Shown here: piece by piece, positions 40,924 to 47,190 of the stretch
How the letters are laid out: every line of letters begins with the position of its first letter
How positions within the stretch are numbered: the first letter of the stretch is position 1
Assembly: GCA_902826455.1 (NCBI GenBank)
Contig: CADEEV010000003.1
Coordinates: 1 to 64,000 of the forward strand
Direction: 5' to 3'
Length of the DNA: 64,000 bases
DNA from: an uncultured Acidobacteriota bacterium
GTDB lineage: Bacteria > Acidobacteriota > Vicinamibacteria > Fen-336
Position numbers and translations under genes: made by a program
Notes under the pieces: generated by a model
What the model was told of the DNA's origin: nothing
The model's input: the letters and a program-made list of their open reading frames with translations, nothing else
Databases searched by the model: none

Positions 40924-42339
<1,416 letters not shown>

Positions 42340-43989
42340 CTAGGTTCGACTCCAATTGAACTTGGCGCGCTCGGGCTTGCCGTACAGGGTGAGGGCGCCC
42401 TTCTCGCCCACCGCGTTCGGGCGCTGGAAGATCCAGTTCTGCCACGCCGACAGGCGGCCGAAGATCTTCGTCTCCATCGTCTCGGGCCCTGCGAAGCGCA
42501 GGTTCGCTTCCATGCCCGTGAGCGCGTCCGGAGAGATCGTGGCGCGCTCCTCGATGGCGAGGCGCACCTCGTCCTCCCAGTCGATGTCGTCGGGAGCGAA
42601 CGTCACGTAGCCCTCGGCCAGGGCCGACTCGGCGTCGAAGCTCTCGCCCACGGGCGGCTCCGCCTTCCGGGGCTCGCCGAGGAAGCGCGTCGCGAGACGC
42701 GACAGGCCGTTCGCCATGGGCAGCGCGCCGCCGTTCAGGGCCGAGAACGCGATCTCGGGCCCGTCGTCCTGCGCGAGCATGTACGAGCGGTCGGCGGCGA
42801 ACGCGAGCTCCAGCAGCGAGCCGGCGAAACACGAGCCTTCGTCCACGATCGCGAGCAGGCTGCGGGCCGTCACGTCGAGGCGCTTCAGCACGCGCTTCAT
42901 GTGATGGAGGACCTCGCTCACGAACCCGTCGTCCTGCTGCGCCAGGAGCGCCGCGTCGACGGCAAGGACGCGAGCGGCCTCGCCGCGCGTCTTCAGGACG
43001 AGCACGCCGATCTCGGGACGGTTGAAGCGCAGGTCGAGGAGCACGTCGTCGAGCTCGCGGAAGGCGCGCAGCGCCCAGAGCTCGCTCCCCCGCTCGCGCA
43101 TCCCGGCCGCGTCGGCCGGCTCGTCCGACTCGGGCGCGCGCACGGTGATCTCCCCGACGCGGGTCGCGGCGTCGATCGCGAGCGTCACGTAGCGATGCTG
43201 GACTCCCCGGTCGTCGTAGCGGCCCTCGAGAGGGGCGAGGACGACGCCGGGCCCGCTCCGCGCCGGCGCGCCGGCGGCGAGCGCCGCCGCCCGCTCGGGC
43301 ACGCGGCTCGCGAACTTCGAGAGCGGGATGGCCTCGTCCACCAGCCGCCACTGCACGGCGCGCTTGCCCTTGACGCCCTCGCCGAGGCTCGAGAACACGT
43401 CGGCGAGATCGCGCCGCACCTTGCGCTTGTCCACGACCCGGGTGAGTCCCCCGGTGCCGGGAAGCACGGCCAGGAGCGGCACCTCGGGCAGGCTGACGGC
43501 GGAGGACGCGTCGTCGACCAGAAGGATCTCGTCGCAGGCGAGGGCCAGCTCGTAGCCGCCCCCGGCGCACGCGCCGTTGACGGCGGCGATGGCCTTCAGG
43601 CCCGAGTGCTGCGAGGCGTCCTCGAGGGCGAGCCGCGTCTCGTTCGTGAACTTGCAGAAGTTCACCTTGAAGGCGTGGGTCGAGGAGCCGAGCATGTAGA
43701 TGTTGGCGCCCGAGCAGAAGATGCGGTCCTTGCCGCTCGAGATCACGACCACCCGCACCTCGGGGTGCTCGAAGCGCAGCCGCGCGATCGCGTCGGCCAG
43801 CTCGATGTCGACGCCCAGGTCGTAGCTGTTGGTCTTGAGCGTGTAGCCCGGCCGCAGCGGCCGCTCCTCCTCGATGTCCATCACGAGCCGGGCCACCGGG
43901 GCGGCCACCTCGAGCTTCCAGTGGACGTAGCGGGAGGGGTGGGTCTCGAACCGGACGGGGGTGGCGCTCGCGGCCTCGGGGTGTTCCAT
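42340..43989 (-). CDS. boxC: 2,3-epoxybenzoyl-CoA dihydrolase BoxC
   Basis: The 549-residue protein is a double-length crotonase. BoxC opens the ring of 2,3-epoxybenzoyl-CoA hydrolytically, giving 3,4-didehydroadipyl-CoA semialdehyde and formate. Crotonase features are VVVISSGKDRIFCSGANI, AAVNGACAGGGYELALACD (oxyanion hole) and SLPEVPLLAVLPGTGGL, with E169 in LPEV and C112 as likely counterparts of known catalytic residues. The second half (FNRPEIGVLVLKTRGE, ALNGGALPMANGLSRL) is a diverged repeat. ATG 43989 is chosen; an in-frame TTG two codons earlier is possible. It is the first gene of the box transcript and divergent from boxR. Confidence 0.97.
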   Translation of the reverse strand: MEHPEAASATPVRFETHPSRYVHWKLEVAAPVARLVMDIEEERPLRPGYTLKTNSYDLGVDIELADAIARLRFEHPEVRVVVISSGKDRIFCSGANIYMLGSSTHAFKVNFCKFTNETRLALEDASQHSGLKAIAAVNGACAGGGYELALACDEILLVDDASSAVSLPEVPLLAVLPGTGGLTRVVDKRKVRRDLADVFSSLGEGVKGKRAVQWRLVDEAIPLSKFASRVPERAAALAAGAPARSGPGVVLAPLEGRYDDRGVQHRYVTLAIDAATRVGEITVRAPESDEPADAAGMRERGSELWALRAFRELDDVLLDLRFNRPEIGVLVLKTRGEAARVLAVDAALLAQQDDGFVSEVLHHMKRVLKRLDVTARSLLAIVDEGSCFAGSLLELAFAADRSYMLAQDDGPEIAFSALNGGALPMANGLSRLATRFLGEPRKAEPPVGESFDAESALAEGYVTFAPDDIDWEDEVRLAIEERATISPDALTGMEANLRFAGPETMETKIFGRLSAWQNWIFQRPNAVGEKGALTLYGKPERAKFNWSRT

Positions 43990-44001
43990 GGGCAATTCCG
44001 G

Positions 44002-44031
44002 AGGCTACGCGACCGGAGCACCGGGTGTCAA
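44002..44031 (-). promoter_or_regulatory. Candidate sigma70 promoter of boxC-boxB
   Basis: On the minus strand TTGACA (44031-44026) is followed after 18 bases by TAGCCT (44007-44002). Transcription would begin near 43995, six bases before the boxC ATG. An operator-like repeat abuts the -35 on its upstream side. Confidence 0.5.
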
Positions 44032-44043
44032 GCACTATACTGC
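44032..44043. promoter_or_regulatory. Operator-like site 1, imperfect palindrome GCACTATACTGC
   Basis: This 12-base site differs at one base from the perfect palindrome at 44065-44076 and starts 33 bases away from it, close to three helical turns. It touches the boxC -35 hexamer. It is proposed as a BoxR-binding site; no binding data exist for this sequence. Confidence 0.5.
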
Positions 44044-44044
44044 G

Positions 44045-44074
44045 TTGACTCTCCAACCGCTCACGCACTATAGT
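44045..44074 (+). promoter_or_regulatory. Sigma70 promoter of boxR, leaderless
   Basis: TTGACT (44045-44050), an 18-base spacer and TATAGT (44069-44074) form the best promoter in the window. The predicted start of transcription at 44081-44082 is the boxR ATG. The -10 lies inside the perfect palindrome, which would let a bound repressor block it. Confidence 0.6.
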
Positions 44075-44076
44075 GC
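44065..44076. promoter_or_regulatory. Operator-like site 2, perfect palindrome GCACTATAGTGC
   Basis: A perfect 12-base palindrome covers the boxR -10 hexamer. Together with site 1 it forms a pair placed on both promoters of the divergent gap. It is the expected layout for an autoregulated repressor that also controls boxC-boxB. Confidence 0.55.
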
Positions 44077-44081
44077 GCGCC

Positions 44082-44843
44082 ATGGACGCCGACCGGCTGC
44101 TCGAGGCCCTGGGCCAGCGCGTGCGCGCCTTGCGCACGGAGCGCGGCTACTCGCTGCGCGAGCTCGCCACGCGCTCCGGTGTCTCGGCCCGCTTCCTGGT
44201 CCAGGTGGAGTCGGGCACCGGGAACATCTCGGTCCGCAAGCTGCTGGCCCTCGCCCGGGCCCTGGGCTCGACACCGGCGGCGCTGCTCACGGGCGCTGGG
44301 GGCGAGTCCGGGATGCCGGTGATCGCCCTGCTCGGGCTGCGGGGCGCCGGCAAGAGCACCCTGGGCCGCAAGCTGGCGCGCAAGCTGCGCGTGCCGTTCG
44401 TGGAGCTCGACCGTCGCATCGAGGAGGCCGCAGGCCTGTCTCTCGCGGAGATCTTCACGGTGCACGGCGAGGAGTACTACCGCCGCCTCGAGCGCGACGC
44501 CCTCGACCAGGTCCTGACCGAGGGCCGGCCCCTGGTCCTCGCCACCGGCGGCGGCATCGTGAACGCCAGGGGCACCTTCGCGATCCTCAAGCGCCGCGCG
44601 CTCACCGTGTGGCTGCGGGCGAAGCCCGAGGATCACTGGAACCGCGTGGTGAGGCAGGGCGACCGGCGGCCCATGGCCGACAACCCCGAGGCGATGGAAG
44701 AGCTGCGCCGGCTCCTCGCTGAGCGCGGCCCTCTCTACGCCCAGGCGGCCCACGCCGTCGACACGTCCCGCCTCGGCGAGAGCGCGTCCCTCAGGGCCCT
44801 CGCGGCCCTCGCGGCTGTGGACGGAGCCACTACGAGGGTGTAG
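44082..44843 (+). CDS. boxR: BoxR-type regulator: XRE HTH fused to shikimate-kinase-like domain
   Basis: The 253-residue protein joins an XRE helix-turn-helix (residues about 9-62; LRELATRSGVSARFLVQVESG) to a shikimate-kinase fold (residues 75-245) with the P-loop LLGLRGAGKSTLGRKL, PFVELDRRIEE and the lid region GDRRPMADNP. BoxR/BzdR proteins use the kinase-like domain to sense benzoyl-CoA, which releases them from box or bzd promoters. The lysine and DRR motifs of active shikimate kinases are retained, yet the family is not thought to phosphorylate shikimate. It is divergent from boxC across 92 bases and followed after 13 bases by the SpoIIE gene. Confidence 0.93.
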   Translation: MDADRLLEALGQRVRALRTERGYSLRELATRSGVSARFLVQVESGTGNISVRKLLALARALGSTPAALLTGAGGESGMPVIALLGLRGAGKSTLGRKLARKLRVPFVELDRRIEEAAGLSLAEIFTVHGEEYYRRLERDALDQVLTEGRPLVLATGGGIVNARGTFAILKRRALTVWLRAKPEDHWNRVVRQGDRRPMADNPEAMEELRRLLAERGPLYAQAAHAVDTSRLGESASLRALAALAAVDGATTRV

Positions 44844-44856
44844 CGTCGCTCCTTCC

Positions 44857-47190
44857 ATGACCAAGCGCCGCTTCGTCTTCCTCCTGACGATGGTGTTCGT
44901 CCTGGGAGGGCTCCGACTGGCGGTGATCTTCGAGGCCTACTTCGGGACGCCGGTCTCCGGGCTGCCCGAGAGCCCGTTGCTGCGCTTCTCCAACGAGCTG
45001 TGGGTGCCGCTGCTCACCCTGGGCGCCGGCGCGTTCATCGGCCTCATGCGCGCCGGGGATCCGAACGCGTTCCGCGCCAGCCAGATGTTCCTGTGGTTCG
45101 CGTGGATGATCCGCAGCCCCAGCCTCGGCTTCGGCCCGGGCCTGCCGCGCGTGGCGGCGATCCTGAGCTCGTTCGCCGCGATCGTGGCGGTGCCGTACTT
45201 CGTGCTGGCGTTCTTCCTCCACTACCCCCGGCGCTCGACGCTCGACCGCCGCGCACCGTGGCTGACGCGCGCCGTGGCCGTCGTCTCCATGGCGTTCTGG
45301 CTGCTCGTGCTGCTGCCGGGCCTGGCGGAGGTGTACGGCACGGACGCGATGCGCACGCTGGTCGCCGCGCTGCCGAAGATCGACCGGACCTCCGCCCTCG
45401 ACAACGCGCTCTTCGCCTTCATCGCGCTCCAGTACTCCGTCGCCCTGGGGACCCTCGGCAACAACCGGCGCCGCGCCCAGACGCCCGACGAGCACCGACG
45501 CCTCGCGCTCATCAACCTCGGCGTCGGGGCCGCCGTGCTGTCGCTCTTCACGGGCGCTCTCACCTTCAAGCTCGGCGTCAATCTGCCGCCCGACGCTCTC
45601 GGCAGCCTCGCGCTGCTCATGGGCCTGTTCCCGCTCACGTTCGTCTACGTCGTGCTGCGCGATCGCGTCTTCGGCATCCGGCTGATCCTGCGCCGCGGCC
45701 TCCAGTACGCCCTCGTCTCGCGGGGCGTCCTGCTGCTCGAGGCCGTGCTGGTCTTCTACCTGCTGTTCATGGGCGCCCGTTCGCTCGTGGACGTGCCCGA
45801 CGACCATGCGCGGTTCGTGCCGGCCATCGCGGCAGCCCTGGCGGTGGGCGCCGTCTACGGCCTCGCGCGGGTGACGCGCAAGGTCCTGCCGTGGATCGAC
45901 CGGCGCTTCTTTCGCGAGGACTACGACGCGCGCGAGGTGCTCGTGGACCTCTCGCGCACGGTGCGGCGGCTGACCTCGAGGCCCGCCGAGCTCCTCGGGA
46001 CCGTGACGAGCCAGGTCGTGGCCTCGCTGCACCCGCGCTTCGCGGCCTTCTACCTGCGCGACGAGGCGTGGCCGCAGCTGCACGCGCTCGCCACGGCCCC
46101 GGCAGCCGGCCAGGGCGAGGATCGCTGGCTGGCGTTCGCCGCGTCGCGCGCCGAGGGCGTCGGGGGCGGGCTGCCCGTGGTGCCGATCGAGGCGGTGCGG
46201 CAGATCCTCGCCACGGGCGACGCGTTCCGGATCCCGGTGATGGACGCGCCCGGCCAGGGCGACGGCGAGAGCTGCCGTCTCCTGGTGCCGCTCCACGGCA
46301 GCGGCCAGCTCCTCGGCTTCCTCGCCCTCGGCGACAAGCTCTCCGAGGAGCCGTACACGCCCGAGGACCGCGAGCTCCTGATGAGCGTCACCGAGCAGTG
46401 CGCGATCGCCCTCGAGAACGTGCGGCTGTTCGCGCAGCTCGCCGACCAGCAGAAGCTCCAGCGCGAGATCGAGATCGCGAAGGAGGTGCAGGCCGGGCTG
46501 TTCCCGAAGGTGCTGCCACGCCTCGACACCCTCGCCTACGTCGGCTCCTGCCGCTCGGCCCGCGAGGTCGGCGGCGACTACTACGATTTCCTCGCCTTGA
46601 GCCCGGGCCGCGTCGGCATCGCGCTGGGCGACATCGCCGGCAAGGGCATCTCGGCCGCGCTGCTGATGGCGAGCCTGCAGGCGCTCCTGCGCAGCCACGC
46701 GCCGCTGCGCGGCCACGATCTCGCGGCGCTCGTGAGCGACATCAACCGGCTGCTCTTCGAGTCCACCGACTCCGCCCGCTACGCGACCTTCTTCTACGGC
46801 GTCTACGAGGAGCCCACGCGTCGCCTCACCTACGTGAACGCGGGCCACGTGCCCCCGGTGCTGGTGCGGGCCAACGGCGAGGCGCCGAGCGTCGAGCGGC
46901 TCACCACCGGCGGCCTCGTGATCGGCCTGATGCCCGATCCCGTCTACGAATGCGCGACCGTCGAGCTCCGGCGCGGCGACGCCCTCCTCATCTTCTCGGA
47001 CGGCATCTCCGAGGCGGAGAGCACGAGCGGCGACATGTACGGCGACGAGCGCGTCGGGCTCCTCGCCGCGGCCTGCCCGGGCCTCTCGGCGGAAGAGCTC
47101 CACGACCGGGTGCTGGAGGAGGTGCTCCGCTTCTCGACCGGCATGCCTCAGGCCGACGACACGACGCTGATCGTGGCCCGGGCGCTCTGA
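44857..47190 (+). CDS. Membrane protein with GAF-like and SpoIIE/RsbU-type PP2C phosphatase domains
   Basis: The 777-residue protein has about eight membrane helices in residues 1-330, a GAF-like domain at about 355-530 (SDLVPLHGSGQLLGFLALGD-like core near 470) and a PP2C phosphatase at about 545-777: AREVGGDYYDFL, ALGDIAGKGISAAL, TYVNAGHVPPVL, LIFSDGISEAES and ADDTTLIV, with all metal-site aspartates present. Such phosphatases usually dephosphorylate anti-sigma-factor antagonists; none is adjacent. It follows boxR by 13 bases and precedes the 2OG-Fe(II) gene by 2, so the three may form a transcript. Confidence 0.9.
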   Translation: MTKRRFVFLLTMVFVLGGLRLAVIFEAYFGTPVSGLPESPLLRFSNELWVPLLTLGAGAFIGLMRAGDPNAFRASQMFLWFAWMIRSPSLGFGPGLPRVAAILSSFAAIVAVPYFVLAFFLHYPRRSTLDRRAPWLTRAVAVVSMAFWLLVLLPGLAEVYGTDAMRTLVAALPKIDRTSALDNALFAFIALQYSVALGTLGNNRRRAQTPDEHRRLALINLGVGAAVLSLFTGALTFKLGVNLPPDALGSLALLMGLFPLTFVYVVLRDRVFGIRLILRRGLQYALVSRGVLLLEAVLVFYLLFMGARSLVDVPDDHARFVPAIAAALAVGAVYGLARVTRKVLPWIDRRFFREDYDAREVLVDLSRTVRRLTSRPAELLGTVTSQVVASLHPRFAAFYLRDEAWPQLHALATAPAAGQGEDRWLAFAASRAEGVGGGLPVVPIEAVRQILATGDAFRIPVMDAPGQGDGESCRLLVPLHGSGQLLGFLALGDKLSEEPYTPEDRELLMSVTEQCAIALENVRLFAQLADQQKLQREIEIAKEVQAGLFPKVLPRLDTLAYVGSCRSAREVGGDYYDFLALSPGRVGIALGDIAGKGISAALLMASLQALLRSHAPLRGHDLAALVSDINRLLFESTDSARYATFFYGVYEEPTRRLTYVNAGHVPPVLVRANGEAPSVERLTTGGLVIGLMPDPVYECATVELRRGDALLIFSDGISEAESTSGDMYGDERVGLLAAACPGLSAEELHDRVLEEVLRFSTGMPQADDTTLIVARAL

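Follow-up and report, generated by a model that had tools for sequence, protein, structure and literature searches.

Gene content and paired palindromes of the box locus

We analyzed a stretch of DNA of 64,000 nucleotides from an uncultured Acidobacteriota bacterium (the window), in which boxC and boxB are divergent to boxR. The features of the locus are as follows.

40924..42339, minus strand: boxB, benzoyl-CoA 2,3-epoxidase subunit (TIGR03225, 732 bits versus a cut-off of 499)
42340..43989, minus strand: boxC, 2,3-epoxybenzoyl-CoA dihydrolase (TIGR03222, 825 bits versus a cut-off of 712)
44002..44007, minus strand: predicted boxC -10, TAGCCT, 18-nt spacer (from the sequence; TAnnnT conserved)
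44026..44031, minus strand: predicted boxC -35, TTGACA, abutting O_L (from the sequence; TTGAC 0 to 1 nt from the left site in 10 paired gaps)
44032..44043, no strand: O_L, predicted left operator, GCACTATACTGC, between two divergent -35 hexamers; conserved
44045..44050, plus strand: predicted boxR -35, TTGACT, 18-nt spacer (consensus scan; same hexamer and spacing in the relative L025)
44065..44076, no strand: O_R, predicted right operator, GCACTATAGTGC, containing the boxR -10; conserved in relatives
44069..44074, plus strand: predicted boxR -10, TATAGT, inside O_R (consensus scan)
44082..44843, plus strand: boxR, 253 aa, XRE-type helix-turn-helix (HTH) and shikimate-kinase-like domain nearly directly joined (Pfam HTH_3 and SKI; NF006015)

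The BoxR protein combines an N-terminal XRE-type HTH (HTH_3, 48.9 bits versus a cut-off of 23) with a C-terminal shikimate-kinase-like domain (SKI, 141 bits; Walker A from residue 85), and it scores 290.7 bits, over the cut-off of 204, with NF006015, the NCBI subfamily model of the benzoate regulator. Like other members of its family it is encoded beside box genes, with divergent boxC and boxB adjoining it; the original prediction had likewise placed BoxR next door to the sites. On the same strand, 14 bases past boxR, lies a long open frame (44857-47190) that may be cotranscribed with it and by eye looks like a phosphatase of the PP2C type (SpoIIE/RsbU-like) that also has a GAF-like part.

The sequence bears out the coordinates given earlier for the two 12-mers, their difference at one base, and their start-to-start distance of 33 bp. 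O_R had been described as a perfect palindrome of 12 bases; it is indeed palindromic, and its real length is 14 bp, one further base at either end completing CGCACTATAGTGCG (44064-44077). The boxR -10 falls inside this palindrome, and the boxC -35 (44031-44026 on the other strand) directly abuts the left 12-mer, both as predicted. What had been overlooked is that -35 hexamers stand on both flanks of O_L (TGTCAA-GCACTATACTGC-G-TTGACT), which is one base from the boxR -35. The order in the window is TGTCAA GCACTATACTGC G TTGACT ... GCACTATAGTGC GCGCC ATG, and a consensus scan of positions 43800-44300 returned the TTGACT-18-TATAGT of boxR as the sole promoter-like match.

Both sites contain a GCA-N6-TGC core with a TATA center. 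Neither has the full TGCA on both sides that marks the betaproteobacterial consensus, the outer bases being CGCA...TGCG in O_R and AGCA...TGCG in O_L. Judged by its letters, the predicted operator is a variant of the TGCA consensus and not a separate motif. Genome-wide pattern searches located exact GCANTATANTGC at just two places in the 5.26-Mb genome, namely, O_L and O_R, and backwards GCANTATANTGC, used as a control, had zero occurrences; within the window, every match apart from these two sites has at least two mismatches.

Conservation of the sites across boxC-boxR gaps

Relatives of BoxR were gathered from GTDB genomes and by searching 396 Acidobacteriota genomes, 30 of which encode one at an E value of ≤1e-40. 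This gave 36 readable boxC-boxR gaps, window included, from Acidobacteriota, Planctomycetota, and one Kofleriaceae metagenome-assembled genome (a myxobacterium), in which a site was called at one mismatch or fewer over the 10 fixed positions of GCANTATANTGC. At least one site is present in 35 of these related, nonindependent gaps and two are present in 27, compared with a mean of 0.2 gaps with one site and 0 with two over 200 rounds of dinucleotide shuffling (maxima, 2 and 0). The original prediction had named a lack of conservation of the 12-mer in related gaps as one result that would overturn it; the prediction survived this check, with a site in 35 of 36. A count of 8-mers made with no motif as input ranked GCACTATA (23/36 gaps) and GCAGTATA (21/36) highest, and TATAGTGC was absent from boxR coding sequence of equal lengths. 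Over 62 sites, themselves preselected at one mismatch or fewer to the pattern, each of the 10 fixed positions of GCANTATANTGC carries 1.46 to 1.93 bits, and the outermost T/A of TGCA is weakly conserved at about 0.1 bit. Since the identity of BoxR to the window protein falls to about 45 to 50% within the gap set, the sites have been kept well beyond neutral similarity. Several Planctomycetota have a single recognizable site, one locus (L008) has only a poor one, and a BoxR-like locus of Methylobacterium (L063) has none.

Association of the sites with boxR

Exact sites occur about twice per genome in 23 boxR-bearing genomes, mostly at the box locus, and 20 genomes of the same class with no boxR match hold 15 lone sites in total and no pair at the spacings of the gap set. 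Where the genes have come apart, the sites go with them: in G134, boxC and boxR each keep one site just upstream, the two sites being about 1.8 kb from one another, and in three genomes in which boxR is not beside boxC (G088, G309, and G376), boxR is still preceded by a pair of sites at 34 bp. In G134 (locus L101, G134:C19:20500-27000), the roughly 1.8 kb between the sites has short GTGCT/GAGCAC-type repeats at its ends, and in the congener G151 the two sites are 92 bp apart. The BoxR homologs of G088 (L103, G088:C109:1-5000; no boxB in this genome) and G309 (L102, G309:C191:4500-11500), with their pairs at 34 bp, lie in coenzyme-F420 clusters, both of which encode an F420-dependent LLM oxidoreductase and cofE, L103 having in addition npdG and a divergent cofG. 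In G376 (L107, G376:C203:48500-53936), the homolog diverges from a gene resembling aldehyde dehydrogenase, and its two sites, at 34 bp, are imperfect.

In the source genome, the regulon appears, from the distribution of sites, to consist of boxR and boxCB only. Neither the best benzoate-CoA ligase (C5:42007-43518) nor boxD (C1:298913-300460) has a site upstream, and both are on other contigs; one-mismatch sites elsewhere in the genome were also rejected as members, being about as frequent as matches to the backwards pattern used as control. For boxA, the model TIGR03224 gave no match at an E value of ≤0.001 in the source genome, and no match reached its cut-off in the 30 genomes of the phylum that carry boxR.

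Comparison with known BoxR/BzdR operators

The palindrome has been described before, a point that the original prediction omitted. Suvorova and Gelfand predicted in 2019 the BoxR/BzdR palindrome ATGCACTATAGTGCAT in Betaproteobacteria, where sites are "almost always multiple" and mainly 3 to 5 turns apart (PMC6449761). That motif includes the 12 bp of O_R exactly, and the box locus studied here shares with the betaproteobacterial ones the presence of more than one site, at a distance of some three helical turns, and a divergent layout of the box units, here under predicted BoxR control. It differs in its phyla, in the lack of conservation of the outermost T/A of TGCA, and in the makeup of the divergon, which here consists of boxR and boxCB, bclA and boxD lying elsewhere and having no sites. 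In a betaproteobacterial box cluster inspected for comparison (Mycetohabitans, L062), GCAATATAGTGC abuts TTGACA as O_L does in the window. DNase I footprints of BzdR on the PN promoter of Azoarcus sp. CIB include TGCA-N6-TGCA (PMC6678401), and BzdR has the same XRE HTH and shikimate-kinase-like domain as BoxR; PN likewise has operators of the TGCA-N6-TGCA type, one of them overlapping the -10, although it has an AcpR site besides its three operator regions and is the promoter of the anaerobic bzd genes (PMC6678401, PMC3602430). Searching the literature for an acidobacterial BoxR yielded no paper. What is new is how far the motif reaches across taxa and how the promoters are laid out.

We consider it very probable that the two palindromes are operators of the adjacent BoxR, acting as a benzoyl-CoA-responsive repressor. 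Conservation across the gaps, agreement with the BoxR/BzdR motif already published, the footprinted BzdR sequence, and the gene-by-gene placement of sites in G134 all favor this assignment, and the match to ATGCACTATAGTGCAT makes it well supported while showing that the motif is not new. Against it count the betaproteobacterial origin of the closest studied regulators, which have a linker of about 40 residues that the BoxR of the window lacks, the position of O_L upstream of the boxC -35, and the single or poor sites of several Planctomycetota and of L008. It is very improbable that the sites serve some other regulator, with BoxR acting elsewhere or not at all, in view of the published motif, of site pairs that travel with boxR even without boxC, and of the confinement of exact sites to the boxR locus in the source genome.

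Spacing classes and promoter layout

Paired sites fall into two spacing classes, 30 to 33 bp (17 gaps) and 41 to 44 bp (12 gaps), while two further pairs are spaced at 55 and 92 and the other five gaps have one site each. The idea that the classes divide strictly by phylogeny was rejected, as the BoxR tree needs three changes; spacing follows descent loosely, not as one event. Ten gaps of the 30- to 33-bp class, window included, have TTGAC on the boxC strand 0 to 1 nt from the left site and TAnnnT 17 to 18 nt after it, and in these the boxC -35 comes right after the predicted left operator. In the 41- to 44-bp class, the divergent promoters appear by eye to overlap, with each of the two cores acting as a -10 hexamer, e.g., in L044.

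This arrangement bears on a very unlikely alternative, namely, that the TATA(G/C)T cores are mere -10 elements of divergent promoters and the palindrome a by-product. The right core is indeed the boxR -10, and the left core of the 43- to 44-bp class resembles a boxC -10 (TATAAT in L044, with the Shine-Dalgarno-like AAGGAG downstream). However, the outer GCA/TGC arms, which sigma-70 does not need, are as well conserved as the core, and in the class of the window the left site is at no -10 position for either gene, being followed by the boxC -35 TTGACA.

The boxR start codon lies 7 nt behind the -10 in the window and 6 to 12 nt past it in 28 of 31 paired gaps, as counted by a script that takes the first in-frame ATG past the site and so is biased to short distances; no later ATG precedes the HTH in the window or its near kin. 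This distance puts the start codon at or near the transcription start, and the boxR mRNA is probably leaderless. Published work gives TANNNT some 12 nt ahead of the start codon as the signature of leaderless bacterial genes, which occur in Acidobacteria among other groups (PMC3160421). An RNA hairpin or chance palindrome, which the perfect or near-perfect inverted repeats might suggest, has a negligible probability, since O_R is upstream of the predicted boxR transcription start, a loop-free palindrome makes a poor hairpin, and chance is excluded by conservation across the gaps.

BoxR proteins without the interdomain linker

The linker of about 40 residues is missing in 32 of the 36 BoxR proteins of the gap set, including that of the window, in which an alignment places Walker A at residue 85 versus 139 in the BoxR of Mycetohabitans. 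BzdR of Azoarcus, in contrast, has it (residues 91-130; PMC6678401, PMC3602430), and a BzdR-SKI chimera without these residues lost its response to shikimate as inducer (PMC3602430). We treat the linker as a trait of the studied BzdR; NF006015 does not require one and accepts the window protein, which we accordingly file as a linkerless member of the family. In such proteins, the signal may pass directly, or the proteins may be tuned in another way. We tentatively suggest, at somewhat less than even confidence, that in Acidobacteriota and Planctomycetota the signal goes from the kinase-like domain directly to the HTH and that the module has been reused outside benzoate degradation, e.g., in the F420 clusters of G088 and G309.

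A model for control of the divergent box promoter

With the palindromes taken as BoxR operators, a BoxR dimer on O_R would cover the boxR -10, so that boxR would shut itself off, and a dimer on O_L, between both divergent -35 hexamers, would block boxCB and probably boxR too. As O_L is upstream of the boxC -35 and not over the promoter core, repression at boxC would be steric. The sites are about three helical turns apart, on one helix face, so binding of the two dimers may be cooperative. Benzoyl-CoA, the substrate of BoxB, would act as inducer by releasing BoxR, whereupon boxCB would be made.

The locus has a compact divergent promoter of 92 bp, whose regulator gene is probably leaderless and, by our proposal, self-repressed. 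The natural linkerless BoxR proteins offer a direct test of what the linker has been proposed to do. The benzoyl-CoA repressor-operator system of Betaproteobacteria would extend to largely uncultured soil phyla with its operator nearly unchanged, which should make box regulons predictable there.
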